DNA of 64,000 nucleotides from positions 565,249 through 629,248 of the forward strand of contig BCGQ01000004.1 of assembly GCA_001599355.1 (NCBI GenBank). The letters are read 5' to 3'. The stretch is from Nakazawaea peltata. Lineage: Eukaryota > Ascomycota > Pichiomycetes > Alaninales > Pachysolenaceae. How positions within the stretch are numbered: position 1 is the first letter of the stretch; each line of letters starts with the position of its first letter. Positions 1 to 64,000 of this stretch are shown here, piece by piece. The notes under the pieces are model-generated. The model was not told the DNA's origin, did no database searches, and saw only the letters and a list, made by a program, of their open reading frames with translations. The position numbers were made by a program, and so were the translations under genes.

Positions 1-41
1 GTAAATCGACTAAGCCAGAATTGAAACCCACAAGAACCATA

Positions 42-593
42 ATGAGTGCCTCTACTATTTCCCCAACTTTAAAGCATGAATCTGGCGATGAAATTATGAC
101 CATTGCCGCCGGATGTTTCTGGGGTGTCGAACACATCTACAGAAAGCATTTTGCTGACAAACTCAGAGATCTTAAAGTTGGTTACGCCAATGGAGCTACT
201 CTGAACCCAACTTACACAGCTGTCAAGACTGGTACTACAGACCATGCTGAACTGTTACAAATCTCTTTTGACCCATCCAAGGTTACTTACCAAGAGTTGA
301 TCAAGTTCTTCTTTTTGATGCACGACCCAACCACTTTGAATTATCAGGGTCCAGACGTTGGAACTCAATATAGAAGTGCTATTTTCACCGCCTCAGATTC
401 TCAACTGGAGACTGCCAAGGCTGTATTTGAAGATATTCAAAAGAACTGGTATCCTAACCATAAGATTGTCACTGCTATTGAACCAATCAAGAACTTTTGG
501 GATGCCGAAGATTATCATCAATTGTATTTGATTAAGAACCCTACTGGATATGAATGTCCATCGCATTTCATCAGAACGACTCCTAAGATTTAA
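42..593 (+). CDS. MXR1: Peptide methionine-S-sulfoxide reductase (MsrA)
   Basis: This 183-aa enzyme reduces methionine-S-sulfoxide in proteins and free methionine, using thioredoxin, in the cytosol. The MsrA signature GCFWG is at residues 24-28 with catalytic Cys25. The family blocks YRKHF, KVGYANG, HDPTT, GPDVGTQYRS and AEDYHQLYL follow in order, and the length is normal for the family. Translation is open upstream to base 21 only through a TTG, so the ATG at 42 is taken as the start. The CTG at 252-254 (residue 71) lies in HAE-x-LQ, where relatives mostly have Ala, which fits CUG-Ala decoding. The promoter lies mostly outside the window. The next gene, ESA1, is on the same strand 267 bp downstream. 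Confidence 0.95.
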   Translation: MSASTISPTLKHESGDEIMTIAAGCFWGVEHIYRKHFADKLRDLKVGYANGATLNPTYTAVKTGTTDHAELLQISFDPSKVTYQELIKFFFLMHDPTTLNYQGPDVGTQYRSAIFTASDSQLETAKAVFEDIQKNWYPNHKIVTAIEPIKNFWDAEDYHQLYLIKNPTGYECPSHFIRTTPKI

Positions 594-652
594 TAAATGA
601 TAATATGAATATAGAAACTGTAAGAGTTAAGTGTCTGGGTACTGAGCTTACT

Positions 653-746
653 CAAATGCCTCTTTCACCTCGTCTCCATCCCCTCCGTGTCCATCCCCTT
701 CCCCCTCGTCTCTCCCTCTCCATCTGCCTCTCTCCTCCCATCCCCA
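653..746 (+). promoter_or_regulatory. C/T-rich tract upstream of ESA1
   Basis: Almost every base on the plus strand is C or T across this stretch. It ends just before the motif AAGTCGTGCACA (747-758) and about 100 bp before the ESA1 ATG. Similar sense-strand pyrimidine tracts precede several other genes here. It is probably a promoter or leader element; its function is inferred. Confidence 0.5.
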
Positions 747-860
747 AAGTCGTGCACAAAATACAAATCAAATTTTTTCCCTAAATTTCTCCTTTATCTC
801 AACCTTCAAACGGCGGTTAATCAAACCCTTCATAATCCGACCCATCTAATCCATCCCAAA

Positions 861-2204
861 ATGACTGATCACGGCGATGACGCTGTGCCAGTTAAGGTCC
901 CCGTGCCTGAAAAGTCCGACTCAGAACTTTTCAAGGTGGAAGACATCATAAATGGTGCCAAATGTTATGTAAATAAAGAAGACCAAGTGAGGCTCCTGGA
1001 GATCTTGTCTGTACACACCAAGAAAGGCCGTAAAGTGTTCTACGTGCACTATGAGGACTTCAACAAACGTTTAGATGAGTGGATAGAGCTTGATAGGATC
1101 GATTTCTTTAGACCCATCACGTATCCTAAGCCAGATGTCAGTAAGGATAATAAGAAGAAACAACAGAAGAAGAAAAAGACACTGGAATCTCTGTCGGCCA
1201 CACCGAAGCCAGAGGATGGTTCGGGTGATGTTATGGATTTGGATAATTTGAATGTCCAAGGTATTCAGACAGGTGTCACGAGGGAAGATGAGATCAAGAA
1301 ATTAAGAACTTCTGGGTCGATGAGTCAAAATAACAATTCACATGAAGTCTCAAGAGTTCGTAATTTAACAAGAGTTATTATGGGAGATGCCATTATTGAA
1401 CCATGGTATTTCTCTCCATATCCAGTGGAATTGACAGAGGAGGATGAAATATATATCGACGACTTCACCTTATCATATTTTGGATCCAAGAAACAGTTTG
1501 AGAGATTCAGAGCTAAATGTACATTAAGACATCCTCCAGGTAATGAAATATACAGAGATGAGAAAGTTTCATTCTTTGAAGTCGATGGACGTAAACAGAG
1601 AACATGGTGTAGAAATTTATGTCTATTTTCAAAGTTGTTCTTGGACCACAAAACATTATACTACGATGTCGATCCATTCTTATTTTACTGCATGACCACA
1701 AGAGATGAATTAGGTCATCATTTAGTGGGCTACTTCTCTAAAGAGAAAGAAAGTGCTGACAACTATAACGTTGCCTGTATTTTGACATTACCACAATATC
1801 AACGTCATGGTTATGGTAAATTGTTGATCCAATTTAGTTACGAATTATCAAAGAAAGAAAATAAAGTTGGATCCCCAGAAAAACCATTATCAGATTTGGG
1901 TTTATTATCTTATAGAGCATATTGGTCAGATATTTTAATCAAATTCTTGATGGAGAATGGAACAGAAACATCCATCGAAGAGATCAGTAATAAAACTGCT
2001 ATGACTACTACAGATATCCTTCATACGTTACAAACTATGAATATGTTAAGGTATTATAAAGGTCAGCATATCATCTGTTTGACAGAACAAGCCGAGCTGA
2101 AGTATGAAAAGATGCAAAAGAAACTGAAACATGTCTTGGATCCGAATAATTTAATATGGAAACCTCCGGTATTCACTGCCTCGCAGTTGAGATTCGGATG
2201 GTGA
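861..2204 (+). CDS. ESA1: MYST histone acetyltransferase, catalytic subunit of NuA4
   Basis: This 447-aa protein acetylates histones H4 and H2A in the nucleus as the catalytic subunit of NuA4/piccolo NuA4. An N-terminal chromo-barrel (about residues 20-85) is followed by a lysine-rich linker and [12 protein letters not shown]. Next come the MYST C2HC zinc finger ([13 protein letters not shown] onward) and the acetyl-CoA loop QYQRHGYGK. Catalytic Cys is at about 306 and Glu at about 340 ([10 protein letters not shown]). The C-terminus [15 protein letters not shown] is the family ending. The frame is open to 687, but the upstream part is a translated C/T-rich leader, so the ATG at 861 is chosen. 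CTG at 996-998 (residue 46) lies in RL-x-EIL, where S. cerevisiae Esa1 has Ala. It is convergent with the RRD gene, with 34 bp between stops. Confidence 0.97.
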
Positions 2205-2238
2205 ATGTCGCTATGTATAATATGAATGAATTTTAATT

Positions 2239-3276
2239 TTAATCAAATGGTAATGGTTTAGCTTTTTGATGAGCTCCAAAAGCTGCCGGAACTTTGATCC
2301 CACAACAATCTCCAAAATGTTGATGAACAGGTTTCGTATCGTCGTAACTATCAGGAGCTTGTCCTACACCATCAGGAGCCTTAATTAATGATCCAAATAA
2401 GAAATGCTGAATAATTGGAAGCTTATTGAGAACTTCACCTTTGAACATCTTGAACATTCCTTCCTCCACTTTTCTCCAGGACTTAACAGCACTGATATCA
2501 TCAAGCATAGGTGAGTGCCATCTCAATGACTCGGTCTTCACACTATTAATAAAGAATATACATTCAAAATAGAAGTAATCCTTAGCAAATTCCTCCACTA
2601 CCTCGGCATTATGAATAGATTTAGGTTTCAAATATTCATGGTTGGAAAGTTGTGATGCTCCGAATAAAAATGGTAAGAAATGATAGTCATCCAATCCCCA
2701 TACTCCATGAGATCCCAGAGGTTCTAACCAATATTCGGTCTGAAGTGATCTCATGATCTTCATATACTTATTGAATACTTTTAAGACTAGGGCTTTATAA
2801 TCTGAATGATCGAAGATACCAAGTTTGGTCAAACATAATAAAAAGCAGATGAAATTCAATTCATGACCTGATCCATAATCAATTCTTGTCTTATTACCCC
2901 AACTTTCTTGTAAATATACCGAGATTTCCATCAGATCTTCCTCTTTTAACTGCTGGAAATTCAGTCTCAACAACCCTGGCAGTTGTTCACTTACTTGGTT
3001 GTAAAAGTCACGGAATTCGAATTTCCCGAATCTTGAGATCTCCTTGTCTTTAGTTACGGGATTCAGCCTGAAAATCGCAACGATTTCATCCATAACTTTC
3101 AAAAGTGATTCAACCTCATTACTAATTTGTACGTCTTGATCTGAGATTTTGGAGCCTTTGACGGAGCTGGCCAAATCGGTCACAAATGACACGATCTCAG
3201 AATATGTTTCGGATTCCTTCCATAATTCCATGTCATGATCTGATACGATCTTCCTACTAGGCATTGTAAACGACAT
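2239..3276 (-). CDS. RRD2: PTPA-family peptidyl-prolyl isomerase, PP2A activator (Rrd1/Rrd2 type)
   Basis: This 345-aa phosphotyrosyl phosphatase activator is a prolyl isomerase that helps assemble and activate PP2A-type phosphatases. Family blocks are RIDYGSGHEL (about 131-140), SHGVWGLDDYHFLPF (about 189 on) and FGDCCGIKVP near the C-terminus. The conserved EPAGSHGVWGLDD core has a CTG codon (2716-2718) at the invariant Ala, one of the strongest single indications of CUG-Ala decoding in this window. The ATG at 3276 starts the protein. Length is closer to Rrd2 than to the longer Rrd1, but the paralogue assignment is uncertain. The 430 bp upstream are rich in G and A on the plus strand, so pyrimidine-rich on the gene's own strand. 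Confidence 0.9.
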   Translation of the reverse strand: MSFTMPSRKIVSDHDMELWKESETYSEIVSFVTDLASSVKGSKISDQDVQISNEVESLLKVMDEIVAIFRLNPVTKDKEISRFGKFEFRDFYNQVSEQLPGLLRLNFQQLKEEDLMEISVYLQESWGNKTRIDYGSGHELNFICFLLCLTKLGIFDHSDYKALVLKVFNKYMKIMRSLQTEYWLEPLGSHGVWGLDDYHFLPFLFGASQLSNHEYLKPKSIHNAEVVEEFAKDYFYFECIFFINSVKTESLRWHSPMLDDISAVKSWRKVEEGMFKMFKGEVLNKLPIIQHFLFGSLIKAPDGVGQAPDSYDDTKPVHQHFGDCCGIKVPAAFGAHQKAKPLPFD

Positions 3277-4447: not shown

Positions 4448-4727
4448 CTTTGATGAATCTCTAATTTATCCCTTACGTCCATGTTTATAATTTAAATTAC
4501 TCATGGCGCTTTGATTTTTTTTGCCTTTTTTTGATGAGCAGGCGATTACTTTAAATGGAAATTGGGGGTACACGACTATTTGGAGGGGTTATCCCTAAAA
4601 TGGTAATGGTGTGGGGGAGGGGTGAGACAGGAGGGGTGATCACAGGGGGGTGGACGTCATAGCACCATAGTCAGAACACAAACTCTCTAGAGACAACTAC
4701 ATTAGAGTCAAATATATATATCGTTTA

Positions 4728-6362
4728 TTACTTTCTCAGATTTACAATCACTTTAGCTAATTCAAGTCCCTTCTCTTCTTCATATCTTCTAGTAAGCATT
4801 TGTATAGAGACAGGAGCTCCCTTCAAAAGATCAAGATTATAATATTTATGATTAGTCTCGTCTCTTGGATTTTGAGGTTGGTAATCCCAAATGTTGACAT
4901 CCACAGAATCATCAACTGTCGACACAGGAATAATCACTGAAGTATAATCAACAATATTGACCCACCTGGTATACGTTGAAGGAGAAGTCTTCGGTTTCAT
5001 CAGTTCAAAAGAAGTTGAACCCCAAGCAGGACATATAATTGCATCGACTCGTTTACCACATTTGGTCAATTTACTCGTCTCTCCCCAATACTTGTCATAT
5101 TTCTGTTGACATTCATACTTTTTGAGAGCTATTTCAAAGTACTCAGTACAAGAAATTACTTCACCTTTAGTAGGAATCACATCTTTATAAGAATCGGTTA
5201 ATGGTTCTCCAGATTTCAGAATCTCTTTCTTGAATGACAGGGACAGTTCCGAAGAATAAAATCCCAAAATGACATCCAAAATGGACTGATGATCTTGAGG
5301 TTCAAGCTCAACTACTTCGTGCCCCAGCAGGATTAACAGACTACTCACTTCCTCCAAAGCTCTTGTAATTGGAGGATGAGGTTGAACAATGCCATCCCAT
5401 TTCAAAACTCCGAAAACAATAGGCTCTTCTGACTTAGGCAAGACTTCTCTCTTCCAAGGAATAGGCAATGTTCTTGCATCATAATCCCAAGCTTCGGCTC
5501 CTACTAAGATTTTACAAACCAATTCAATATCACCCAAGTCTTGACCTAAAGCTCCAATTACACTGAGAAGACCAACAGATCCAGAACCTAAATCACTACA
5601 ATTTCTAGCTGGGATTCTACCTGTGGTTGGTCTAATTGAGTAAATTCCATTGAAAGCTGCCGGATTACGCAATGATCCTCCAATATCACTTCCAATTCCA
5701 ATTATTGATCCCCTTGCAGCGATCAATGAAGCCTCTCCTCCTGAAGATCCGCCTGAAGCCAATTTCCGGTTGATAGCATTGTAAGTGTATCCACAAAGAT
5801 TGGAAGTTGTCTCGTAAGACATCATCCCCATTGGAACAGTGGTTTTAACGTAGAAAATGGCACCATTGGCCCTCAAGATCTTAACTACATCCGATTCCTC
5901 TTCACTGGTAATGAAATGGCCGAGTCTACCAATGAAACCCTGACAAGACTCCAATCCTTCGACGTTAAACTGATCCTTGAGTGATACGGGAATCCCATGC
6001 AAAGGTCCAACTAACTCTCCCGTCTTCTCGTAATACTCATCTTGTTCTTTGGCCGTTGCAAATGCATTGTCAAAGCAAATCTCAGACAAACAATTGGTCA
6101 ATTGATGGACCATGCTGGCTCTTTTACAAAAAGCTTTAGTGATCTCCAACAGAGTCAACTCTCTCAGTCTTATCTTCTCTTGTAATTGTGGTATAGTCAA
6201 GTACACAATCAGGACCTCTTCTTTAGGCAAAACCTTATCCAAATAAATCAAAGCATTAGGCTCTTCCTCAGCAGCAGGGACACTCTCCAAGACCCATTCT
6301 TTAGGAATGAGTTTATAGAGAGATTCTCTCTTTTCTTTAGCTCTCACTTCCCAATCTGACAT
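4728..6362 (-). CDS. Amidase-signature-family amidase (Amd2/acetamidase-like)
   Basis: This 544-aa cytosolic amidase would hydrolyse a small amide to acid and ammonia. The amidase-signature triad is visible: Lys129 in VSLKDQFNVEG, cis-Ser207 in SGGSSGGE and nucleophile Ser230 in GSDIGGSLRNPA. The N-terminus (ESLYKLIPKEW) and HQLTNCLSEICFD resemble fungal general amidases such as S. cerevisiae Amd2 and Aspergillus AmdS; the substrate cannot be told. The frame is open ten codons further only through a TTG, so the ATG at 6362 is chosen. Only 144 bp separate it from the stop of CAC2. That gap contains GATAAG (6448-6453), a site for nitrogen-responsive GATA factors, which suits an amide-using enzyme. 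Confidence 0.9.
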   Translation of the reverse strand: MSDWEVRAKEKRESLYKLIPKEWVLESVPAAEEEPNALIYLDKVLPKEEVLIVYLTIPQLQEKIRLRELTLLEITKAFCKRASMVHQLTNCLSEICFDNAFATAKEQDEYYEKTGELVGPLHGIPVSLKDQFNVEGLESCQGFIGRLGHFITSEEESDVVKILRANGAIFYVKTTVPMGMMSYETTSNLCGYTYNAINRKLASGGSSGGEASLIAARGSIIGIGSDIGGSLRNPAAFNGIYSIRPTTGRIPARNCSDLGSGSVGLLSVIGALGQDLGDIELVCKILVGAEAWDYDARTLPIPWKREVLPKSEEPIVFGVLKWDGIVQPHPPITRALEEVSSLLILLGHEVVELEPQDHQSILDVILGFYSSELSLSFKKEILKSGEPLTDSYKDVIPTKGEVISCTEYFEIALKKYECQQKYDKYWGETSKLTKCGKRVDAIICPAWGSTSFELMKPKTSPSTYTRWVNIVDYTSVIIPVSTVDDSVDVNIWDYQPQNPRDETNHKYYNLDLLKGAPVSIQMLTRRYEEEKGLELAKVIVNLRK

Positions 6363-6474: not shown

Positions 6475-6506
6475 AAATAGATAGCGGAAATGTTATTTAT
6501 AAGTAT

Positions 6507-8303
6507 TTATTGAGAGGTGATAGGGGCCGGAGGGTCATATTTCTCAAACTCATCAGTGAAGTTGACAGAAGAGCAGAACCCATCTGTAGAACTGATAATT
6601 AAGGTTTGACCATCTGCGGACCATGCCAAATCAGTCAAAGTCGAGTAGTGCAAATTCGAAATGTACGATAATGGCTTGACAGACTCGGTATCGTAGATGA
6701 TAATGGAGTCCTGGGTCGCCACGGCAAATACCATTCTGTATGGGAGCTTGAAGAATGGTTTATTTATGCCGGTTCCAGTTGCTGGTCTGATAGTAGGCAG
6801 TTGTGATTCTTTTGGTGGTACCTCCTTGAGACCTTCGTCTACCTTGAGCTTTTTGGATGGGGTTCCACTGGTGGAGTTTGGACCTTTTTTCAATTTATAT
6901 AAAATAGGACTGAATCTGATCACAATAGAAGGTTTTTTCAACCCTGGAAGATGAGCAATTGGAGCTCTATTCAATCCAGATCTCGAATATATGTAAACAG
7001 TGTTAGTGAAGTTGTCTGTAGTGTTATCGGTAGACAATTTGAATACTCCGGAAGGTGTAAGAAGTAAGCTTCCATCTGGAGAGAAAGTAAGTCTTCTGAA
7101 GAACGATTGTAAAGTCTCGCTGTGATATATTTGCCACGTCTTCATCGATGGAGGTTCCATAGGTCTGATGGCAGGAAGAGGTGTATTATGTCTGGAAGGA
7201 GACATCATAGCTGACGGTTTCAATTCTCCTGTGTTTGCAGGGGTTGTTGAACGAGGTGGCACCGTTGTAGCTGGTGCAGGTGCCGTTGATGTTGATACAG
7301 CTGTAGATGTAGAGGAAGTAGAGGCTGAGCGAGCATTTCCAGGACCCAGGAGTGAAGCATGGGCCAAATTAGGGGAAGGTGATTGATGACGATTGGTAAA
7401 GACACTAGAAGTAGTAGATCCATTTGAAGAACTTGACAATTTTCTCTTATGTGATGTAGGAGGGTTCATAGCAGTAATATTGGATGTGGTCAAAGGTGTG
7501 ACAGATATAACATTGGTAGGCAGATTCCTCTCCAGTTGAGAAGAATTAGGAGTACTTGGGCTCATACTTATAGATTCAGGGAACTCTGACAGTTTCATGC
7601 GAGGAGAGTGGGGCACTCTTCCAACCGGTAACTCGGCTCTCTCAATCTTGTAAAAAACTGTAGGCAGCAAAATCAATTCTCCATTTACTTCACTTTGGTT
7701 CAATTTGTAGATATTGACGGTTCTATCCAGAGATTGAGTAGCAATGAACTCATTCTTAGGGTCCCAAGCAACTCCTTGAACGTAATGAGAGTGACCCAGG
7801 ATCTGTTTCAACTGTTGTCCACTGATCACGTCATAAATTCTAGTAATATTGTCCATAGATCCAGTTAAGATCTTCTTGGAATCAGGAGACCAAGCCAAAT
7901 CGTAAATTTCCGAGTTGGAAGAACGACATGCGTGTTTTAAGATCCAACTCTCCTTAGCATCAGGATCATCATTAGCAAATTCCTTAACAATATGATCTGA
8001 TAATTGCCATATAAAAATAGTTCCATCGTCACCAGCAGTAGCAAGCAAGTCTCCTTTTGGACTGAATCTCACAACATTGACAGCTTGAGTATGCTTCGCC
8101 AATGTACAAAGGTATTCAACGCCCTTGATACTGCGATCCTCACCATAATTCAACTTCCAAATTCTCACGTTATTATCACCTCCACCAGTAGCTAAGCGCT
8201 CGGAATTCTCGCCCTCTCTTTTCAGCGGTTGGAAATCTACACTGTATACGGGATAATTCTCGTCGTGCCAATGCACAGTGATCGTTGAAGCGTGAATGGC
8301 CAT
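6507..8303 (-). CDS. CAC2: CAF-1 chromatin assembly factor, p60/WD40 subunit
   Basis: This 598-aa nuclear protein is the WD40 subunit of CAF-1, which deposits H3-H4 behind the replication fork. It opens MAIHASTITVHWHDENYPVY, with the family's start (an early HWH and YPVYSVDF). WD repeats follow (GGGDNNVRIW, GDDGTIFIWQ, GSMDNITRIYD, SLDRTVNIYK). A long Ser/Thr/Pro insertion at about 230-380 precedes the last blades (FFRRLTFSPDGSLLLTPSG, VFAVATQDSIIIYD, LAWSADGQTLIISSTDG). That layout is typical of Cac2/CHAF1B. The ATG at 8303 is the first codon. An MCB element ACGCGT (8381-8386) 78 bp upstream fits G1/S expression. Confidence 0.93.
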   Translation of the reverse strand: MAIHASTITVHWHDENYPVYSVDFQPLKREGENSERLATGGGDNNVRIWKLNYGEDRSIKGVEYLCTLAKHTQAVNVVRFSPKGDLLATAGDDGTIFIWQLSDHIVKEFANDDPDAKESWILKHACRSSNSEIYDLAWSPDSKKILTGSMDNITRIYDVISGQQLKQILGHSHYVQGVAWDPKNEFIATQSLDRTVNIYKLNQSEVNGELILLPTVFYKIERAELPVGRVPHSPRMKLSEFPESISMSPSTPNSSQLERNLPTNVISVTPLTTSNITAMNPPTSHKRKLSSSSNGSTTSSVFTNRHQSPSPNLAHASLLGPGNARSASTSSTSTAVSTSTAPAPATTVPPRSTTPANTGELKPSAMMSPSRHNTPLPAIRPMEPPSMKTWQIYHSETLQSFFRRLTFSPDGSLLLTPSGVFKLSTDNTTDNFTNTVYIYSRSGLNRAPIAHLPGLKKPSIVIRFSPILYKLKKGPNSTSGTPSKKLKVDEGLKEVPPKESQLPTIRPATGTGINKPFFKLPYRMVFAVATQDSIIIYDTESVKPLSYISNLHYSTLTDLAWSADGQTLIISSTDGFCSSVNFTDEFEKYDPPAPITSQ

Positions 8304-15558: not shown

Positions 15559-16911
15559 ATGCTTTTCAGGAGGTTTATATCTTCTAGTGGGGCCGCTCGT
15601 GGTGCGCTGACAAGTAATGTGTTAAAGCGCCCAGTCTTGAATTACAAAGGGTTCATTGAAAATGAAGATCTGTACCTCAATAGTATCAGACGAAGAGAAC
15701 TCGGAGATGAACTGGTGGATAGATATTTGAATATCAAGCCATTATACAAGAGATTCGTTGATCTCGATAAGGAGATCCGTGACTTGAAGTTCAAGAGAAG
15801 GAATATCGAGCTGGAATTCAAAAATTCAAACGCCGATAAGTCTGTTTTGAAGGATTTGAAGGACATCAAAATTCATTTGAAGAATATTGAGACAGAATTA
15901 GTAAAGGTCAAGGATGAGTTATATGTAGCGGGAGAGTCATTACCCAATTTGATCCATGAATCTGTACCTGATTCAGAAGATATCGTGGAGATTATTCACC
16001 CTGATAAATCTCAGCCAGCTAATGAAAAACTCGATCATAAATCTATTGGTGAAAAATTGGGAATTTTCAATTTTGAGAAAGCTTCTCAAGTTTCAGGTAC
16101 TTCTTGGTATTATCTTGTAGGAGATGGTGCTTTATTAGAACAGGCTCTTGTTCAATATGCTCTCAAATTAGCGAGACAATGTGGTTTCAAAATGTTAACT
16201 CCACCATCAATAGTAAGATCTGAGATTGCAAATGGATGTGGATTCAAACCAAGAGATCAAAATAATGAACAACAAGTTTATGAATTACAAAATGAGGGAC
16301 TTTGTCTCACCGGAACTGCGGAAATCCCGATTGCTGGATTCCATCTGAATCATGTTTTTGATTCTCTTGAACAACCAGTGAAGTATGCTGGTGTTAGTAG
16401 AAGTTATAGAGCTGAGGCAGGTGCTCGTGGAAGAGATACTAAGGGACTTTACAGGGTACATGAATTCACCAAAGTTGAGCTCTTTGTATTTTGTGAGAAC
16501 GATGAAGCCGTCTCTTCAGAACAGTTACATAAACTCGTCGACTTCCAGACTAAATTCATCACTTCTTTAGGGTTACATGCCAAAGTGTTGAATATGCCAG
16601 CCAATGATTTAGGAGCTCCTCTGTATCAAAAATATGACATTGAGCTGTTTATGCCTGGACGTGGCAAGTATGGAGAGCTCACTAGTTCTTCGAATTGTCT
16701 TGAATACCAATCTAGAAGATTGAATATTCGTTACAAGTCTCAAGACCAATCTTTGAAATACGTTCATACTCTTAACGGGACTGCCGTAGCTGTTCCAAGA
16801 TGTATCGTGGCTATTATCGAGAATTTCTACGACCCTGCTACGAATTCTGTACTTATTCCTGAACCGTTAAGGGTATATATGGATGGTAAGGAACGTATAA
16901 CTCAACAATAA
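15559..16911 (+). CDS. DIA4: Mitochondrial seryl-tRNA synthetase
   Basis: This 450-aa class II synthetase charges mitochondrial tRNA-Ser. The start MLFRRFISSSGAARG is a mitochondrial targeting peptide. Next come the N-terminal coiled-coil arm (about residues 50-120) and the catalytic core with motif 2 SYRAEAGARGRDTKGLYRVH and motif 3 HTLNGTAVAVPR. In-frame CTG codons at 16621 and 16645 fall at the Ala positions of AP-x-YQKYDIE-x-FMPGRG, two more supports for CUG-Ala. The open frame begins seven codons earlier with GTG; the ATG at 15559 is chosen. A cytosolic-type tRNA-Ser(CGA) gene lies 140 bp downstream, probably by chance. Confidence 0.93.
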   Translation: MLFRRFISSSGAARGALTSNVLKRPVLNYKGFIENEDLYLNSIRRRELGDELVDRYLNIKPLYKRFVDLDKEIRDLKFKRRNIELEFKNSNADKSVLKDLKDIKIHLKNIETELVKVKDELYVAGESLPNLIHESVPDSEDIVEIIHPDKSQPANEKLDHKSIGEKLGIFNFEKASQVSGTSWYYLVGDGALLEQALVQYALKLARQCGFKMLTPPSIVRSEIANGCGFKPRDQNNEQQVYELQNEGLCLTGTAEIPIAGFHLNHVFDSLEQPVKYAGVSRSYRAEAGARGRDTKGLYRVHEFTKVELFVFCENDEAVSSEQLHKLVDFQTKFITSLGLHAKVLNMPANDLGAPLYQKYDIELFMPGRGKYGELTSSSNCLEYQSRRLNIRYKSQDQSLKYVHTLNGTAVAVPRCIVAIIENFYDPATNSVLIPEPLRVYMDGKERITQQ

Positions 16912-17051: not shown

Positions 17052-17133
17052 GACACTATGGCCGAGTGGTTAAGGCGGAAGACTCGAAATCTTCTGGGCT
17101 CTGCCCGCGCAGGTTCAAATCCTGCTGGTGTCG
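17052..17133 (+). tRNA. tRNA-Ser (anticodon CGA)
   Basis: This 82-nt class II tRNA has a 7-bp acceptor stem GACACTA/TGGTGTC (one G-U pair) and discriminator G, the usual serine base. The anticodon stem-loop GAAGA-CTCGAAA-TCTTC gives anticodon CGA (reads UCG). There is a long variable arm (GGGCTCTGCCC). A box TGGCCGAGTGG and B box GGTTCAAATCC are perfect Pol III promoters. There is no intron. A run of 11 T (17139-17149) terminates it. It is not the CUG-decoding tRNA. Confidence 0.96.
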
Positions 17134-21266: not shown

Positions 21267-22223
21267 ATGACACTACAGGAGAAAGCCGGAAAGATATTAT
21301 CCATTCAATCCCATGTTGTCCATGGTTATGTCGGGAATAAACTGCTGACTTTCCCATTACAATACAAAGGATGGGATATTGACCTGTTGAATACGGTGAA
21401 CTTCTCCAATCATCCAGGATATGGTCAATTCAAAGGATCTAAAATGAAAGTAGATGATTTGGAAGACATTTATAATGGTTTGATGGAGATTGGTTGTGAT
21501 TACGATGTGATTCTCACAGGGTATATTGCGGATCTGAACTCACTCGAAAAGGTAGCTCAATTGTGTAAGCAGTATATCAATTCAGAAGCCTCCAGGTCAT
21601 CCAAATGCATATGGGTTGTCGATCCTGTTTTAGGAGACAATGGGAAATTATATGTGAGCGAGGACATTTTACCAATCTATAAGAAAATGCTTGAATCAGG
21701 AGCAATTACATTGGTCACACCCAATCAATTTGAGATGGAGTTATTAGTAGGTATGAAAATTACATCTTTAAATGACATCAAGTCACTGATTGAAAAGTTC
21801 CAGAAACTTTATCCAAAAGTCCCCAATTTAGTTATTACATCTATCAGTTTTGACTCTCAATTATTTTGCTGTGGCTGGACTCAGCATGACAAGCAAAACA
21901 TATTCTATTACAAAGTTCCAATTATTGATGCCAACTTTAGTGGGAGCGGCGACTTGTTCAGTGCGATTCTCACAGATGCATTCTATGTGAACTGCATAAA
22001 GAATACGATCGAAGATTTTTCAGCGGGATTAATTAAACTGTTAGGGGAGACTTTAACTACAGTTGAGAAAGTATTGAAGATCTCTTACGAGATATACAAG
22101 ATCGAATCTACCACAGTTGCAGCTGGATCGGCCAAATTGTACATTAAAGATTTGAAGATTATACAGCTGAAACATGTATTCTCGGAGAGAGAAATTTTAT
22201 ACGATGCTGCATTTCTAGTCTAG
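21267..22223 (+). CDS. BUD17: Pyridoxal kinase (Bud16/Bud17 family)
   Basis: This 318-aa ribokinase-fold enzyme phosphorylates pyridoxal, pyridoxine or pyridoxamine to make PLP in the cytosol. Signatures are SIQSHVVHGYVGNK (about 12-25), TFPLQYKGWDIDLLNTVNFS, WVVDPVLGDNGKLYV, TPNQFEMELLVGM and the ATP/anion-hole motif ANFSGSGDLFSA, which contains the catalytic Asp. Two consecutive CTG codons (21342-21347) fall at the conserved AA of NKAATFPLQ, strong evidence for CUG-Ala. The frame opens earlier at a GTG; the ATG at 21267 is used. S. cerevisiae has two paralogues (BUD16, BUD17); the choice between them is tentative. An inverted repeat starts three bases after the stop. Confidence 0.9.
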   Translation: MTLQEKAGKILSIQSHVVHGYVGNKLLTFPLQYKGWDIDLLNTVNFSNHPGYGQFKGSKMKVDDLEDIYNGLMEIGCDYDVILTGYIADLNSLEKVAQLCKQYINSEASRSSKCIWVVDPVLGDNGKLYVSEDILPIYKKMLESGAITLVTPNQFEMELLVGMKITSLNDIKSLIEKFQKLYPKVPNLVITSISFDSQLFCCGWTQHDKQNIFYYKVPIIDANFSGSGDLFSAILTDAFYVNCIKNTIEDFSAGLIKLLGETLTTVEKVLKISYEIYKIESTTVAAGSAKLYIKDLKIIQLKHVFSEREILYDAAFLV

Positions 22224-39108: not shown

Positions 39109-42100
39109 TTACATCTCACCCAATTCAATCACTTTCCAATCCTTAATATCCTCAGGTCCAACTACACAACTACTTTCAACCTCCAGGTTAATAAGATATT
39201 TCTCTCCAGCCAGTCTAAGGTCTCCTAAACTAACCCCCAATAATTCTTCTCTTCTTTTTTGTCTCATTTGATCACTGATTCCACTGATGAAATAAGAGAG
39301 TCCCTCACTACGAATCCCAATTGGAGCATCAACTTTCTGGAAAATCGACAATTTAGCTTGATCCAAATCAGCCTGGCTGATTCCATCATCACCAATTACC
39401 TTCTCAGTAATTGGTACAATTGAGTCAAACAGGTCATCAATATTTTCAACCAGATACTCTCCAGACTGTTTGAATACCTCCAAAGATTTTAATGGATTAG
39501 GATCTCTATAAGAATAGTAGTTGAAAATACCATTTACAGCATCATAATTGGCTCCACCTCCATAAGCCCCACCCTTCTCACGGATAAGTTTGTGTAATCT
39601 CTTGAAGGTTAAGATTTGAGAGAGAACTTGTAAGGAAGCACCATCTTCATGAGTGTATGGAACACCTGGGATAGATAAAGAAGAAAATTGGACTTGACTT
39701 GGAACTTTGATCAATTGGTTGAAATTAGAATCCAATTGAGGGATCGAAATGTTAGAAATAGTAGTTTCAGATGGTAATTTACCAATGAACTCTCTAGAGA
39801 GTTTCTGTTGTTGGTCCAAATTCTCACTATCACAAGTCAACATGATTTTGAAGTCATCATTACTAACTAAAAGTTTCTGTAACTCGATCAATTTTGGAAT
39901 CACCTTCTCCAGCAATTGTCCTTGCTCATTCCATTTAGCCAATTGACTCAAAAATTGCACCTGTCCAACTCCACTTAACATCTCGTCGTATAATGCTCTT
40001 CTGTTGAAGGAAGCACTACTCATGGACTTAGCAAAGGAATGTCCATTACTAATAATTCCATTCAAATTATCAGCATTAAGACTCTTAATCAAAGTCGTAA
40101 GTTTCTCCTGATTATTGAAGTTAGTCTCGGTCAATAATTCTTGTAAAAGTTGATACATTTTCTCGGAATTTTGAGATAAAGCGACACCTGAAACGGTGAA
40201 TCTCAAACTAACATCCCCAAGATCGAATGGAGAACTTGAACAACCCACATTAGCAGATATTCCACCAGTATACAACTTAATCTCTTCATCTAAATCAGCC
40301 ATCTCACGAGCAGATGTACCTAAATTGGTCAAACATTCTGTGAAAAGAGGTAAAAATGGAATAAGCTCAGCCGGAACCAATTTGGAAATCTCCCTCTTAG
40401 CTCTAAAGTACACTAAACCATTGGCTCTAGAAGAGACTCTTACAAACATGTCATCTCCAGGGGTCTGTACATCGACAAACTCTCCACGTTGTGGGATATC
40501 TGTGATCTTAAGCGACGGTAATACCGACATATCTTCCTTCTCATTCTGTTTTTCCTCCAATTTCAACCCCCTTTGGAATACCAGTTCTTTATCTTGCTCA
40601 GAGAGAGGCTCAACCTTGCGCTTCAACCTACTTTTTTCTTCCTCAACAACTTTTTCTTGGAAATCCGGGGTGGGGTCCATAGTGAATTTGAATGAAGGTT
40701 TAGCCAATAACTCATTTTCAATCAAGGTGGTGAATAATTGAGATCCCTGTTCGGAGTACTCTTTCTTGAATCTCAGAAGAGTCTCCTCAAATTTCAACAT
40801 CTCAAACGGATCAACATCACTCAACCACAGCGGCGTAACCGAATACAAGATATTCATCCCGAAATCGGCATTCTCCAATTTCTTCCCCAATTCTAATTGA
40901 TGAATTAAAGCCTCAACCCTCTTAGATTCAAATCCTTGAGCCGCGGCCTTGCCGAGGATATCCTTAACGATCTCTCTGAACTCATCACTTTTCTCCTTCG
41001 TTAAACCCTGCGCACCAATAGTGAACATGTTCTGCGCACTAATCGATTCAAAGCCTGTATTGACCGAGAAGTCATCCCCAATTCCAGACTCAATAAGACC
41101 TTGGTACATTGGAGCAGAATGACCGTCGATCAACAAATTCAGAAGAAGTTTGTAGACAAATGATGAGTAGACGTCTTTTGGATCTCCAAGGTACCATGTA
41201 AGCGATGTTTTGTACTGCTTATCCAGTGGAGCCATTGGATCTACTGGACCCTCACAGCTGACATCTTTCGGCTCGCTTAAAACTAACGGTTTCTTAATGA
41301 TATTGCGAGCACCTCTCTTGCCAAAAGTGACAAATTTCTCATTAATCTTTTCAAGGGTAGAAACTAAGGGGAAAGATCCATAAGTGAACATTCTAGAATT
41401 GGAAGGGTGGTAATTTGAGGCATGGAAATCTAAAAGATCCCAATATTCCAACTGAGTCATTTTTGAAGGATCACCTCCAGAATTATTTAAAGAGGGATAA
41501 ATCGATTCCTGGAATTTGATCCAATAATAATATGAACTATTAGAAACCTGTCCCTTCATTTCATTATATACAACACCTTTAAAGATCAATGGGGACGATT
41601 TGTCGTTGGTGACTTCATTTTCCAATCTCCAACCTTCTTGTTGGAAATCTTGCTCACTTAATAAAGGTTTCAACGTAGCATCAAGGTAAACGTCAGTCAA
41701 ATTTTCGTAATCACTGAGGTTTGTAGTGGCAAAGGGGAAGAAAGTATAATCATGACCGGTCATGGCGTTCATGAAATTGGCCAAACTTCTATTCAACATC
41801 TTGAAAAATGGGTCTCTAACAGGGTATTTCTCCGATCCACAAAGAGTGGTGTGCTCCAAAATATGAGGTACACCAGTACTATTGGGAGGGTTAGTCTTGA
41901 AAGAGATACTGAAGACATTGTTTTTGTCATCACGATCAATATGTAAATGACGAGCACCAGTCTTCTCATGTTTCAATTCCACAGCTGTCATTTTGAATTC
42001 TGGAACCGCCATCACTCTTTCGATTTCAAAGCCATGAACTTTAGCACCAACAGGGTACTTTCTCTGCATTCTTTCGGCTGAATAAACCGACGCATACTTC

Positions 42101-42156
42101 CGGATAGCATTTCTGACCGTATTGGTCTTTTGAATCTTGCTGTATCTAGCCAACAT
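39109..42156 (-). CDS. CYM1: Mitochondrial presequence protease (PreP/pitrilysin M16C)
   Basis: This 1015-aa matrix metalloprotease degrades cleaved presequences and other short peptides after import. The N-terminus ([22 protein letters not shown]) is a basic targeting peptide. The inverted zinc motif HxxEH is HILEH at residues 98-102, in the family block [20 protein letters not shown]. The distal Glu ligand lies in [16 protein letters not shown] at about 198. The second half has the degenerate M16 repeat and the [11 protein letters not shown] block. Length equals S. cerevisiae Cym1. ATG at 42156. The divergent promoter shared with PTM1 carries Mcm1-type boxes. No CTG is apparent in the most conserved block. 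Confidence 0.97.
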   Translation of the reverse strand: [1015 protein letters not shown]

Positions 42157-50440: not shown

Positions 50441-52552
50441 TCAGCTCTGATGAGTAGATGTATTGGCAGATACAATATAAGACGAATCCGACGAAAGAGA
50501 ATATTGATCTTCGACTGGTGGAACTCGATTTGAAGTAAGCTCGTTCTCCTGTCTGGCCAAATGAGGAATCACAGCTTCAAGATTACCCAACCCTAAAGGT
50601 ACAAAAGTGTCTGTATCGATTTGAGGGATCTTTTTGGGACCTGCAGTAAGGGAAGAATTCCGAAGAGTACCTGAGCTGGAACTTATCGATTGTTGGTCTT
50701 CAAGTGTATCTAAAGCTTTCTTGCTTATTGATCTATGACGACCCAGCAAATCGTGTCTCAATGATCGACGGAATGGATATGCAAAGTCCCTTCTGAACAC
50801 CCTAACAATACCAGTCTTGTCAGTTGTGACAATGATGGCATATTCTGGATGTAAGTCAGCTTCGGCATTAGGAATAGGAGCTTGTGGTCTTATCGAATGA
50901 ATTGGACATAAGGTATGTTCACATGCCGTTGGAGCATGAGGTGTCACACTACCTGATTGTGATTGAGTAGAAGACGATTCAGACGATTGGTATTGTTCGT
51001 AATTGCTGTATAATTCGTACAAAGGGTCATTTGAGAGTTCAATCAATTTTGATGTAGCCACCGGGGCAAACATAGCAGATGTAACTTCTGTGTGATGCAG
51101 ATGAAATACTAAATAGTTGGAATTTTTCGGTACAGATGTGGCATTATCATGGTCTTCTTCTACTTTGTGTCCTGGTCCTGGTGCAAATAACTTCTTCAAT
51201 GTTTGTTTCAGTTTCAGAGCTCCACTGAGCTTACCTTCATCTAACATATTCCAGATATAACACCAATGATTCTCGCTTCCCGATATCAAAAAAGTGTGAT
51301 CTTCATTTAAGCGAGCAGTTACTTGAGAATAATCATTAGTCAGGCCCTTGAATTTCATCTCCACTTTATTGGTGGTTAGATTGAATTTACGAATCTTCGA
51401 GTCATTAGAAGTAATTATCACTTTGAGATTATCATGAGGATCTCCAGCTTCATAATACAGTTCGATTCCAGTAATTTTAGGACCTACCACTGGAGAATTT
51501 TGGGATCCAGCTCCATGTTTGATGAAAAAATCATATTTCTTATCAAGACCTCTTGTTTCCAACACAGAACACCAACCTAATCCACCTGCCAAACAAGTTT
51601 CCCCATCAGGAGTGAATGAAATCAGAGTAATAAGTCCCATGAGTTCCTTCTGGTAACTCACCTCTTTATCGAGAATCGACCATAATCTTACATGGGCATC
51701 CATACAGCCTGTCAAAATGAAACGATCATCAGTTGGGTGGAAATTCACACTAGTTACCATCTCATCATGTATGAATTCCTGAAGACAATCCTCACGCTCG
51801 ACATGCCAGAGCTTGGCACTACCATCCATTGACCCTGTGACCAAGAAATTGTTTTTTGACCAATCTAGCGATACAACTCCACTAGTATGCAGTTGATGAA
51901 GTTCAAGAATCGGTTTCTCTTCGAAAACCGGAGCAAATACCTTATTATTTACAGAATATGATGAATCTGGGCATGCTAAAATGCTTTTATCTGGGCCAAT
52001 ATCATATTTGGTGGTTCCATTAGCACCTGGACTAGATACAGAGCCATTATTTGTACTAGTCCTACTGACAGATGCCGAAGTGACAGCAGTAATTGTACCA
52101 GATGTGACGTTGGGGTTGACACTACCTGAGGATTTGGAATGTGAAAGAGTCGAACTATCAAAAGTGGATTGTAATGAAGAAGCTCGGGACCTATTACGAG
52201 TCCTTGTAGTAAGATGATTAAAAGGGGCAAACTCTGATGTTTGCACTTCCAACCTACTCAAGGGGGATGATATCACTTTCCATACAAATACAGAGCCATC
52301 TTGTTTACCAACAGCATAGTATTTTCCATCCTTTGAGAATTTCGATACCCAAATAGGAGACTCATTGCGACTGTTCAACTCTTGAGCTAAGAAAAGATGA
52401 TGAAATAACCTTGTTGACTGTTTGCTCTTTCGGAACACCTTGACGTATTTGGGTTGTTGTAGCAATTGTGAAAGCCGGGACAGGTCTGTCAGTATTGGAA
52501 TACTCAACGGTTCCTGTTGTCCCGCCACACTACTACTATACACCGATGACAT
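50441..52552 (-). CDS. DGR2: WD40-repeat protein, Dgr2/YMR102C-like
   Basis: This 703-aa WD40 protein has a start region SIPILTDLSRLSQLL and then the first blade SPIWVSKFSKDGKYYAVG (about 70-90). A Ser/Thr-rich loop (about 115-200) precedes VVSLDWSKNNFLVTGSMDGS, FILTGCMDAHVRLW and later blades. The C-terminal region has more disordered Ser-rich sequence. The pattern of a short WD propeller with a long inserted loop matches the S. cerevisiae pair DGR2/YMR102C and human WDR44; their role in yeast is poorly known (Dgr2 is linked to 2-deoxyglucose resistance). The frame continues to a GTG upstream; ATG 52552 is chosen. Paralogue identity is tentative. Confidence 0.75.
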   Translation of the reverse strand: MSSVYSSSVAGQQEPLSIPILTDLSRLSQLLQQPKYVKVFRKSKQSTRLFHHLFLAQELNSRNESPIWVSKFSKDGKYYAVGKQDGSVFVWKVISSPLSRLEVQTSEFAPFNHLTTRTRNRSRASSLQSTFDSSTLSHSKSSGSVNPNVTSGTITAVTSASVSRTSTNNGSVSSPGANGTTKYDIGPDKSILACPDSSYSVNNKVFAPVFEEKPILELHQLHTSGVVSLDWSKNNFLVTGSMDGSAKLWHVEREDCLQEFIHDEMVTSVNFHPTDDRFILTGCMDAHVRLWSILDKEVSYQKELMGLITLISFTPDGETCLAGGLGWCSVLETRGLDKKYDFFIKHGAGSQNSPVVGPKITGIELYYEAGDPHDNLKVIITSNDSKIRKFNLTTNKVEMKFKGLTNDYSQVTARLNEDHTFLISGSENHWCYIWNMLDEGKLSGALKLKQTLKKLFAPGPGHKVEEDHDNATSVPKNSNYLVFHLHHTEVTSAMFAPVATSKLIELSNDPLYELYSNYEQYQSSESSSTQSQSGSVTPHAPTACEHTLCPIHSIRPQAPIPNAEADLHPEYAIIVTTDKTGIVRVFRRDFAYPFRRSLRHDLLGRHRSISKKALDTLEDQQSISSSSGTLRNSSLTAGPKKIPQIDTDTFVPLGLGNLEAVIPHLARQENELTSNRVPPVEDQYSLSSDSSYIVSANTSTHQS

Positions 52553-58480: not shown

Positions 58481-59377
58481 ATGTCTCATAACGATAAGAA
58501 ACAATCTGGATCAGCCAGAGTCTTGGGATCAGCTTCTGCTGGTATTTTGGAAATCGGTGTCTTCCACCCTGTTGACACCATCTCCAAGAGATTGATGAGT
58601 AACCACACCAAGGTTGCCTCTGTCTCCGAATTCAACAAGGTTATCTTCCGTAATCATGCCAATGAAAGTCTCGGAAAGAGATTGGGTTCTTTATTCCCTG
58701 GTTTAGGTTATGCTGCTTGTTACAAGATCTTGCAAAGAGTTTATAAGTATGGTGGTCAACCATTTGCCAATGAATTCTTGAACAAGAATTTCAAGGGAAC
58801 TTTTGAGGATCTGTTTGGTGCTAAGAAGGGTAAACTGTTGATGTCTGCTGCTGCTGGTTCTTTGATCGGTATTGGAGAAATCGTTCTTTTGCCATTGGAT
58901 GTTTTGAAGATCAAATCTCAAACTAACCCTGAGCTGTTCAAAGGTAGAGGTTTCTTGAAGATCATCAAGGATGAAGGTCTTGGATTATATAGAGGTCTGG
59001 GTTGGACTGCTGCTAGAAATGCCCCAGGTTCTTTCTCCTTGTTTGGTGGTAATGCTTTTGCCAAGGAATATATCTTTGGTTTAGAAGACTACTCTCAAGC
59101 CACTTGGACTCAAAACTTTGTCGCTTCCATCTTTGGTGCTTCTGCTTCTTTGATTGTTAGTGCTCCATTGGATGTTATTAAGACCAGAATTCAAAACAGA
59201 AACTTCGACAACCCAGAGAGTGGTGTCACCATCTTGAAAAATATGTTGAAAAACGAAGGTATTTCCTCTTTCTTCAAAGGTTTGACTCCAAAATTGTTGA
59301 CTACTGGTCCTAAATTGGTCTTCTCGTTCGCTTTGGCCCAATCTTTGATTCCAGCTTTCGACAAGATCTTGGGTTAA
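58481..59377 (+). CDS. GGC1: Mitochondrial GTP/GDP carrier
   Basis: This 298-aa inner-membrane carrier exchanges GTP and GDP and is needed for mitochondrial DNA and iron balance. Three carrier motifs are seen: HPVDTISKRL, LPLDVLKIKS and APLDVIKTRI. Long blocks match S. cerevisiae Ggc1 (ASAGILEIGVFHPVDTISK, KYGGQPFANEFLNK, GSLIGIGEIVLLPLDVLK, RIQNRNFDNPESG, TPKLLTTGPKLVFSFALAQS). Four in-frame CTG codons (58811, 58835, 58934, 58997) include GK-x-, NPE-x-FKGRGF and YRG-x-GWTAARN, positions where relatives often have Ala; the one at 58811 aligns with Leu of S. cerevisiae. ATG 58481. Codon use is strongly biased, suggesting high expression. Confidence 0.96.
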   Translation: MSHNDKKQSGSARVLGSASAGILEIGVFHPVDTISKRLMSNHTKVASVSEFNKVIFRNHANESLGKRLGSLFPGLGYAACYKILQRVYKYGGQPFANEFLNKNFKGTFEDLFGAKKGKLLMSAAAGSLIGIGEIVLLPLDVLKIKSQTNPELFKGRGFLKIIKDEGLGLYRGLGWTAARNAPGSFSLFGGNAFAKEYIFGLEDYSQATWTQNFVASIFGASASLIVSAPLDVIKTRIQNRNFDNPESGVTILKNMLKNEGISSFFKGLTPKLLTTGPKLVFSFALAQSLIPAFDKILG

Positions 59378-59462: not shown

Positions 59463-61038
<1,576 letters not shown>

Positions 61039-62835
61039 CTAATACAACGTACTAAACGGATCATTGAATCCAGTTGTTCTGTTGATTGTAAATGACTTTT
61101 GTTGATTGTCTTGATAATTGATAATAGGAGTCAAAATATTGTTGGCATTATTATTAGGATTAGCCTTGTGTTTGAAAGTGAAGCCAACAAAATTGTTACT
61201 CATTCTGGCTGTTCTCAAACTTGCCATCTTCTCATCATTCTCCTTCTTCTTCATCACATCTTTGTAACGTTCCATATTCTCTTCATTGTTGAAATCGTCA
61301 AAGTAACCGGCATCTTCCTCATTATCCAATTCAGGAACGAAAGGAGGAGATCTATCTTTAAGGTGATCGAAATCTACCTCGCTGAAATAAGCAGCTTGGG
61401 TGATTTGTTTGAAAGATCTGTATCTGGCAGTTGGTGAGGCAATCAATTTAGTAATGAAATTCCAAGTACGATCACTGAAGACATAACGACCGTCTTCATA
61501 ACGAGGACGTCTTAAAGTTTCCTTCCATCTTCTCAAGTTATGGTAAGTCTCATCGGTAGAAGCACCGGAGAATGGCGTATAACCAGCTAAAGTCTCGAAC
61601 AAAATACATCCAAGAGCCCAGTAATCAATGGTGAAATCATAAGGTCTTCCCTCGACAACCTCAAGAGCCATGTAATCTGGAGATCCGACTACCGAATTGG
61701 CTAATTGTACATCTTTCAGTCTCAAATTTCTGTATAACAGTTGTCTCTCCAGGACGGTTCTCTCCTTTGGTTTGTACTCCAAATCTTTGACTTGGTTCAA
61801 TCTCAATTTCATACTTTCGATTCTCTCGTTCGAAACACTACCAGCAGCTAAACCGAAATCAGTCAATTTAATATGACCTTTGTTATCGATCAAGAAGTTC
61901 TCAGGCTTCAAATCTCTATGAGTGTATCCCAACTCATGCAAAGCATTAACAGCTGCAAACATCTCACTGGCGTAGAATCTGGCATGAGGAGGAATAAGAA
62001 CACCTGTGCTGAACAACAAGGTTCTGTAATCACCACCAGGAACAAACTCCATAGCCAAGAACAAACTGTCATTGTTTTGGAACAGATATAATAACTTGGT
62101 CAACCAATCACTTCTAGTGTGAGTCAAAATGTCTCTCTCGGTTAAAACATGTTTAGTTTCATCCATCTTTAACAAAAGATTCTTACTCAACACTTTCAAA
62201 GCAACAATTTCTCTGGTGTCCTTCTTTCTGGCCAAATAAACCTGACCATAACCACCTTGACCGACCTGAGTGATGATATCGAAATCATTGTTTCTAGGCT
62301 TTATTCTTCTCTTACGTAAGAGCGCCCTTTCTCTTCCAGTATAATCTCTCCAATTCATCATGGCTTGATGAGGATCAGACATGGTTGAAAGTGTCAGCTC
62401 AACTTTCTGGCAACGCTCCTTTCTGCTAATAATGTAATCGAAATAATCACAATAATAGTCCAAAAAATACATCTGGGCCACAGTCACCAATCTCTTAGTA
62501 GCTGGCTTGTTGGCCTTCAAGTAAAAGTCTTTGTTCAATCTGGACAGTCTGGATGGAGAAGAAGGTGGAGAAATGTTCATCTCATCTTGCATAGGAATAT
62601 TCTCCTTATTAAGAGCAACTCTCTCCATTGGTCTCATTGGTTGTTGGAAATAAGGATCCAACTGGCTGTTTCTCTTGGAATTTGGTGATGGCTCAAAAGT
62701 GAAGCGCTCAGTAAAAGACTTGGATGGAGATGAAGTTGGTGTGAAATTGGTACCAATCTCAAACGTTTCGATCTCTCTACTCAAATTCTCGACATCTTGA
62801 GTCGGATTCAGTCTACTAGTTCTAAAGAAGTTCAT
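61039..62835 (-). CDS. DBF2: NDR/LATS-family mitotic exit kinase Dbf2/Dbf20
   Basis: This 598-aa Ser/Thr kinase acts in the mitotic exit network with Mob1. The order is an N-terminal disordered segment (1-110) and the NDR Mob-binding region (KRLVTVAQMYFLDYYCDYFDY onward, about 113-160). The kinase domain follows, with GQGGYGQVYL (about 192-201), Lys214, HRD at 306-308 and DFG at 326-328. The NDR insert and T-loop are present (NSVVGSPDYMALEV). The C-terminal hydrophobic motif is FVGFTF. All catalytic residues are present. The frame reaches a GTG upstream; ATG 62835 is chosen. Its promoter has an Mcm1 box next to a forkhead site, as for S. cerevisiae DBF2 in the CLB2 cluster. Confidence 0.95.
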   Translation of the reverse strand: MNFFRTSRLNPTQDVENLSREIETFEIGTNFTPTSSPSKSFTERFTFEPSPNSKRNSQLDPYFQQPMRPMERVALNKENIPMQDEMNISPPSSPSRLSRLNKDFYLKANKPATKRLVTVAQMYFLDYYCDYFDYIISRKERCQKVELTLSTMSDPHQAMMNWRDYTGRERALLRKRRIKPRNNDFDIITQVGQGGYGQVYLARKKDTREIVALKVLSKNLLLKMDETKHVLTERDILTHTRSDWLTKLLYLFQNNDSLFLAMEFVPGGDYRTLLFSTGVLIPPHARFYASEMFAAVNALHELGYTHRDLKPENFLIDNKGHIKLTDFGLAAGSVSNERIESMKLRLNQVKDLEYKPKERTVLERQLLYRNLRLKDVQLANSVVGSPDYMALEVVEGRPYDFTIDYWALGCILFETLAGYTPFSGASTDETYHNLRRWKETLRRPRYEDGRYVFSDRTWNFITKLIASPTARYRSFKQITQAAYFSEVDFDHLKDRSPPFVPELDNEEDAGYFDDFNNEENMERYKDVMKKKENDEKMASLRTARMSNNFVGFTFKHKANPNNNANNILTPIINYQDNQQKSFTINRTTGFNDPFSTLY

Positions 62836-62953
62836 CTTAACTCTTGTCTTCCTCACTTAAAACTAATTCAATTCATATTATGAAATTTTTAAAACTGCCT
62901 TTTTCTCCCTCTTTTTGTTCCCTCTTCCCGTCTCTTCTCTCGCGGCTTTGATG

Positions 62954-63014
62954 TGTTTACATATTTCCCAATTAAGGAACAGAGCTTTGGGGAAGTAATG
63001 ATTTCCTAATTGGG
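62954..63014 (-). promoter_or_regulatory. Forkhead-Mcm1 composite and second Mcm1-like box upstream of DBF2
   Basis: TGTTTAC (62954-62960; GTAAACA in the DBF2 direction) lies 3 bp from TTTCCCAATTAAGGAA (62964-62979), which contains a CC(A/T)6GG Mcm1 core. A second Mcm1-like CCTAATTGGG is at 63005-63014. This order and spacing resemble CLB2-cluster promoters. Confidence 0.6.
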
Positions 63015-63188
63015 ACTAATTGTGCTTCACATGCACGATCAGATCTAAAGAGTGCGCTTAAATAAAAAAAAGTAAGATAGGGGTAATAATTACCGTTTTG
63101 GGTAACAAAAAGCCGCTACTATATAAGAACGAGAGGGAGAGATGTTAAATCAAGTTTAATATTATAGCAACTTTAATTGAGAAGAAAT

Positions 63189-64000
63189 GGTTGGTGTTCA
63201 AAAGTTCTATAAATTGGCCTCTGGTCAATCCTTACCAACAGTTGGACTTGGAACTTGGGAAATCCCAAGATCAAAAACTGCCGAAGTCGTCTACGAAGCC
63301 TTAAAGGCAGGTTATAGATTGATTGATTGTGCTGTTTTGTATGGTAACGAGAAGGAATGTGGTGAGGGAATTGCCAAATGGTTGGCTGAGGATAAATCTC
63401 ATAAGAGAGAAGATATCATCTACCAAACCAAATTATGGAATTCTGAATGTGGTTACTCCAATGCTAAGGCTGCTATTGAGAGATGTTTGAATAAGGTCAG
63501 TTCGATTGGGTATATTGATGTCTTATTGATCCATTCACCATTGTGTGGTCCTAGACAACGTTTGGAGACTTGGAAAGCTATGCAAGAGGCTGTCGATGAA
63601 GGTTTAGTCAAAACCATTGGTGTTTCTAACTACGGAACCCTGCATATCGACCAATTACTTAACTGGGATGGTTTGAAATATAAGCCATCCATTAACCAAA
63701 TTGAGATTTCTCCTTGGTTGATGAGACAAGAATTGGCCGACTATTGTGTTTCTAAAGGTATTGTCGTGGAAGCCTATGCACCATTGGCTCACGGAGGTAA
63801 GATTAACCACCCAACTATCTCTAAGATGGCCAAGAAATACGGTGTCTCTAATTCTCAAATCTTATTGAGATGGTCTATCCAGAAGGGTCATGTTCCATTA
63901 CCAAAGACTCAAACTGTCTCAAGATTGGCTCCAAATGTTGATGTATACTCTTTCGACATCTCTCCAGAAGATATCGAAGCTATTTCTCAACCTGGAGCCT
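63189..64000 (+). CDS. Aldo-keto reductase (partial, cut by window end)
   Basis: The first 270 codons of an NADPH-dependent aldo-keto reductase; the C-terminus lies beyond the window. The catalytic tetrad is seen: Asp47 and Tyr52 in LIDCAVLYGNE, Lys82 in QTKLWNSE and His116 in LLIHSPL. GVSNYGTLHIDQLL and VPLPKTQTVSRL (cofactor binding) follow. It belongs to the AKR group of small-aldehyde or xylose/glycerol reductases and to the Gcy1/Ypr1-like fold; substrate is not predictable. ATG 63189 follows an AAGAA context. An AGGGG stress element (63079-63083) lies about 110 bp upstream. Divergent from DBF2 with 353 bp between starts. Confidence 0.88.

Follow-up and report, generated by a model that had tools for sequence, protein, structure and literature searches.

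CTG codons favour alanine in a 64 kb stretch of the Nakazawaea peltata genome, and the tRNA found for them elsewhere in the genome is of alanine type

Which amino acid does CUG specify in the yeast Nakazawaea peltata? The question is raised by a 64 kb stretch of contig BCGQ01000004.1 (positions 565,249 to 629,248; hereafter the window), which carries about 25 long open genes and belongs to a genome of 11,631,020 bases in 11 contigs. An initial annotation, made from the letters of the window alone, had named 13 CTG codons, placed most of them at alanine positions of conserved proteins and proposed the CUG-Ala code (table 26) of the Pachysolen/Nakazawaea type. All 13 are indeed CTG and in frame; the codon accounts for 206 of the 12812 codons in 25 open reading frames (ORFs) of the window, and GCN for 614. 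We conclude, with a probability of about 0.97, that CUG is read as alanine through one transfer RNA (tRNA) that combines a CAG anticodon with alanine identity, and that the window comes from the nuclear genome of a budding yeast in the CUG-Ala clade (Alaninales). This estimate rests on blind codon scoring and its bootstrap, a Pfam scan and a regional comparison of tRNA genes. The evidence is decisive for alanine over leucine; for alanine over serine it is weaker in the aligned columns of three genes and is carried by the Pfam scores and the type of the tRNA.

Codons were scored blind in three genes of the window:
4728..6362, minus strand: amidase ORF with 11 CTG codons.
15559..16911, plus strand: DIA4 ORF (mitochondrial seryl-tRNA synthetase) with 7 CTG codons.
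39109..42156, minus strand: CYM1 ORF with 10 CTG codons, 9 of them scored; also used for the tree described below.

Every CTG was masked as X, the best 120 matches to each protein were retrieved, 118 homologues were aligned per gene and the columns were scored for all 20 residues. Six database proteins, from Pachysolen and from the relative that accompanies it in the CYM1 tree, were dropped before columns were counted. One CYM1 column was discarded for low occupancy, leaving 27 CTG columns. The procedure recovered the standard residue for 56 of the 60 sense codons seen, the others being CTG, AGC (4 columns), CGC (3) and TGC (1). At the CTG columns alanine scored best (+0.78 bits per column) and leucine came 11th of 20, though leucine was best for TTG, TTA, CTT and CTC (CTA is absent from the scored columns); CTG does not favour leucine as the other leucine codons do, the pattern expected of the standard code. 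When the columns were bootstrapped (n = 5000), the best reading was alanine 4572 times, serine 412, lysine 15 and asparagine once. The interval for alanine minus leucine ran from 1.9 to 3.8 bits per column, and none of 5000 random draws of 27 non-alanine columns equalled the alanine score of CTG. Four of the 27 columns are dominated by one residue (at least 60%): alanine in three, glycine in one, leucine or serine in none. Taken gene by gene, alanine is favoured in the amidase and in DIA4, and CYM1 is undecided.

The same preference was seen in protein family scores. Twenty of the 25 ORFs were scanned with CTG read as alanine, serine or leucine (tables 26, 12 and 1), and 33 Pfam family matches were tallied, a match being informative when the readings differed by at least 0.5 bit. 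Of 23 informative matches, 17 scored best with alanine, three with leucine and two with serine, with one tie between alanine and serine. In the summed scores alanine leads serine by 32.9 bits (over the 23 matches) and leucine by 76.2 bits. The Tudor-knot domain of ESA1, for example, scores 76.8 with alanine, 74.0 with serine and 71.3 with leucine. PfkB, PK_Tyr_Ser-Thr, ABC1, VHS and zf_PCFS4 were excluded as weak or overlapping, and Seryl_tRNA_N was retained slightly below the cut-off. Each of the two WD40 proteins is represented in the tally by a single family out of many overlapping ones. Two overlapping matches left out of the tally scored 80.6 (alanine), 81.4 (serine) and 74.3 (leucine) for WD40_Prp19 in the protein at 50441-52552, and 114, 114.4 and 111.7 for WD40 in the protein at 6507-8303.

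Single codons were compared with the residues in the alignments listed for PDB and homologue matches. The records of the matched PDB chains give molecule names; their species (yeast, for the carrier matched by GGC1) is our assumption. The codons facing alanine were as follows:
996..998, plus strand: CTG in ESA1 RLAEIL; alanine in both alignments listed.
2716..2718, minus strand: CTG at the conserved alanine of PTPA EPAGSHGVWGLDD; alanine in all five alignments listed.
6150..6152, minus strand: CTG in amidase ELTALEITKAF; weighted alanine 0.63, serine 0.36.
16621..16623, plus strand: CTG in DIA4 GAPAYQKYDIE; alanine in 119 of the best 120 homologues.
16645..16647, plus strand: CTG in DIA4 DIEAFMPG; alanine in 100 of the best 120 homologues.
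21342..21347, plus strand: a pair of adjacent CTG codons within GYVGNK(AA)TFPLQ of pyridoxal kinase; alanine-alanine in all three alignments listed.
58835..58837, plus strand: CTG in GGC1 GKALMSAAAGS; alanine in the mitochondrial GTP/GDP carrier that is its best PDB match.

The GGC1 codon at 58835 is absent from the initial annotation. The claims made there for PTPA, ESA1, DIA4 and both pyridoxal kinase codons (21342 and 21345) were borne out. These are six of the 13 named sites; of the others, four face different residues and two a mixture, so the evidence from single sites is weaker than had been claimed.

The decoding tRNA lies outside the window, which itself holds one tRNA by ARAGORN:
G000:C4:81426-81498: a tRNA gene whose anticodon is CAG, at a distance of 484 kb from the window, identified by pattern search and ARAGORN.
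17052..17133, plus strand: tRNA-Ser(CGA), the only tRNA that ARAGORN finds in the window.

The CAG gene matches the genome once in a self-BLAST and folds into a cloverleaf with a short variable loop, T33, G37 and a run of T shortly 3′ of the gene. It carries the pair G3:U70 and A73, both also present in tRNA-Ala(AGC) and tRNA-Ala(TGC) of this genome. Its acceptor stem holds a single T.T mismatch, as do the tRNA-Ala genes of the genome. G3:U70 is the main identity element for alanyl-tRNA synthetase (AlaRS). Inspection of a CAG tRNA for this pair had been suggested as a check on the alanine reading, and the sole CAG tRNA that the searches turned up belongs to the alanine type, not to the leucine or serine type. 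ARAGORN labels it 'tRNA-Leu(cag)', a name assigned by anticodon only.

Patterns combining anticodon CAG with a B-box gave 70 matches, 19 from the first pattern and 51 (in 50 stretches) from two wider ones. Among the first 19, ARAGORN found the CAG tRNA and a tRNA-Leu(AAG) with CAG in a stem; its intron option added an intron-bearing tRNA-Leu(TAG) at L040. The 51 wider matches contained only tRNA-Asp and no further CAG tRNA. A class II A-box pattern returned 16 genes, for leucine (CAA, TAA, AAG, TAG) and serine (AGA, GCT, CGA, TGA), none of them CAG, and the combined class II pattern with CAG had no matches. Within the patterns used, no CAG tRNA of leucine or serine type was found, the ancestral tRNA-Leu(CAG) included. 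At L064 an ARAGORN 'tRNA-Val(cac)' was read by eye as an intron-bearing tRNA-Leu(CAA). The tRNA-Leu(UAG) at L061 (G000:C4, about 804.5-804.7 kb) has a 120-base intron, which is long for a yeast tRNA.

These observations suggest a route. The leucine tRNA that ancestrally read CUG seems to have been lost. AlaRS would charge the single tRNA(CAG) with alanine, because the tRNA bears G3:U70 and A73 and the enzyme is indifferent to the anticodon; passages of PMC5951914 state that AlaRS needs no particular anticodon bases. CUG would then be decoded as alanine in the cell.

Several observations weigh against this conclusion. The bootstrap interval for alanine minus serine in the three-gene set spans zero (-0.24 to 1.59). 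The 9 CTG columns of CYM1 alone do not favour alanine (asparagine -0.04, serine -0.16, alanine -0.24), and glycine makes up 75% of one of these columns. Pfam prefers serine in CAF1B and HAD_SAK_1, and leucine in PreP_C, PCI and one carrier. Among the sites claimed for alanine, GGC1 58934 and 58997 face serine and tryptophan in the best match, the GTP/GDP carrier, and MXR1 252 faces valine in all three alignments. GGC1 58811, which the initial annotation had called neutral or contrary, faces leucine in the same match. The two RPN9 claims held in one alignment of the three listed: position 45028 faces phenylalanine twice and 45076 serine twice, with alanine in the third at both. Serine also faces a CTG in the Y-x-FQ segment of a kinase (2/2), and two forkhead sites face proline at one and cysteine or tyrosine at the other (5/5). 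The other four CTG codons of PTPA meet lysine, serine, serine and leucine in the best match. In the S-x-I-S-S motif of a repetitive region that is probably an adhesin, the codon at x is TTG 35 times, CTG three times and GCT once, and the initial annotation too had noted CTG/TTG exchanges there; with the two codons one transition apart and the sequence of low complexity, we give this repeat little weight either way. Finally, of the 608 candidates in the general search for tRNA genes 63 were scored, and the patterns are finite, so the inventory is not exhaustive and an unusual tRNA gene could be missed.

Three other readings have to be considered. The one that survives best, itself very improbable, is that CUG is mainly alanine with some leucine, added through wobble reading by tRNA-Leu(UAG). 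The genome has that tRNA gene, and tRNA(CAG) has G37 after its anticodon, a base that passages of PMC5951914 link to some leucine mischarging of C. albicans tRNA-Ser(CAG). The presence of CTG at the six conserved alanine sites suggests low ambiguity, and recognition of an alanine-type tRNA body by leucyl-tRNA synthetase would not be expected.

A serine code like that of the Candida clade (Ser1) or the Ascoidea clade (Ser2) is more improbable still. Serine is the second-best residue at the CTG columns (+0.12 bits per column), it won the 412 bootstraps counted above, and it is best in two of the 23 informative Pfam matches, over which it trails alanine by the 32.9 bits already given. A serine reading sits badly with DIA4 16621 and PTPA 2716, where alanine prevails in the homologues and alignments listed. 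The tRNA-Ser(CAG) with a long variable arm that either serine code would predict did not turn up in the pattern searches, and the sole CAG tRNA found lacks the long arm typical of tRNA-Ser. The CYM1 tree, too, places the window with Pachysolen and not with Babjeviella/Priceomyces or Saccharomycopsis/Ascoidea. The standard code, with the matches to conserved alanine arising by chance, has a negligible probability: GGC1 58811, the three leucine-favouring Pfam matches and the position shared by CTG and TTG in the adhesin speak for it, and the rank of leucine at CTG columns, together with the failure of the patterns used to find a leucine-type CAG tRNA, speaks against it.

With alanine as the preferred reading, the ancestry of its tRNA can be considered. 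The CAG tRNA was compared region by region, with loops aligned by hand, with tRNA-Val(TAC) and tRNA-Ala(AGC) of the same genome. It matches the valine tRNA at 14 of 17 positions in the D arm (alanine, 10 of 17) and at 7 of 10 in the anticodon stem (3 of 10). The acceptor stem with position 73 is closer to tRNA-Ala(AGC) (11 of 15; valine, 9 of 15), as are the variable and T arms (19 of 22; tRNA-Val(TAC) 16 of 22, tRNA-Ala(TGC) 15 of 22). The full alignment with tRNA-Val(TAC) has 52 identities in 74 positions, and that with tRNA-Ala(AGC) has 49 in 73. It is conceivable, but doubtful, that tRNA(CAG) is a valine/alanine chimera, or a tRNA-Val whose valine anticodon was lost and which gained G3:U70 and A73, and not a simple anticodon mutant of tRNA-Ala. 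The valine-like D arm and anticodon stem could reflect drift, gene conversion or a valine origin. The U6.U67 mismatch was tried as a mark of alanine ancestry and rejected, since tRNA-Val(TAC) has it as well and it is not diagnostic. More broadly, the case bears on the origin of new decoding tRNAs; the alanine/valine mixture seen in tRNA(CAG) is a testable detail.

Two coding regions deserve a note. The forkhead protein (17659-19758, minus strand) has 27 CTG codons, many of them in a glutamine-rich stretch, so reading CTG as alanine breaks up a polyglutamine tract. The region at 24068-38470 (plus strand) is repetitive and rich in serine, threonine and proline, and by composition it probably encodes a cell-wall adhesin. 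Interruptions around a stretch of N (27888-27987) and near 34.2-34.4 kb divide it among three open frames; these breaks may be assembly errors within the repeat. A repetitive ORF of 255 amino acids antisense to it (34693-35460, minus strand) is probably not a gene.

CTG as alanine in the Pachysolen/Nakazawaea group is a real and previously described code change, in print since 2016-2018 (PMC5951914). In practice, the nuclear CTG codons of this genome should be translated by table 26, and proteins predicted with the standard code would hold a wrong leucine at every CTG. The placement of the window fits this group, as had been proposed. In a single-gene CYM1 tree of 27 rows, the window protein groups at a support of 100/99 with two sequences, one from Pachysolen tannophilus (58% identical to it) and one from a database relative (65% identical). 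The group adjoins Kuraishia, Komagataella, Ogataea, Pichia and their allies and is separate from Babjeviella/Priceomyces and Saccharomycopsis/Ascoidea. Leucine counts at alanine-majority columns in the proteins of Pachysolen and the relative were tried as a sign of their code and were uninformative (0 in 6 of 6). NCBI taxonomy places Nakazawaea in the order Alaninales, which a passage of PMC11540330 lists as an order with CTG reassigned.

According to passages of PMC5951914, Pachysolen, Nakazawaea and Peterozyma form a clade that reads CUG as alanine. The paper reports liquid chromatography with tandem mass spectrometry of 18 species. The present genome resembles that clade in the alanine preference of its CTG columns, its alanine-type CAG tRNA, the grouping of CYM1 with Pachysolen and, within the patterns used, a lack of tRNA-Leu(CAG); the code itself shows no difference. 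The tRNA may differ in one respect: passages of the same paper derive the novel CAG tRNAs from tRNA-Ser or tRNA-Ala through anticodon mutation, whereas here the D arm and anticodon stem are closer to the genome's own tRNA-Val(TAC). The CUG-Ser1 code of the Candida clade (table 12) reassigns the same codon, and there too the ancestral tRNA-Leu(CAG) was lost (PMC5951914), but the tRNA is of serine type and the residue is serine. The CUG-Ser2 code of Ascoidea and Saccharomycopsis is an independent reassignment of the same codon; in that clade tRNA-Leu(CAG) is retained in four of five species (passages of PMC5951914), whereas in N. peltata the patterns used turned up no tRNA-Leu(CAG) and a single CAG tRNA, which is alanine-type.

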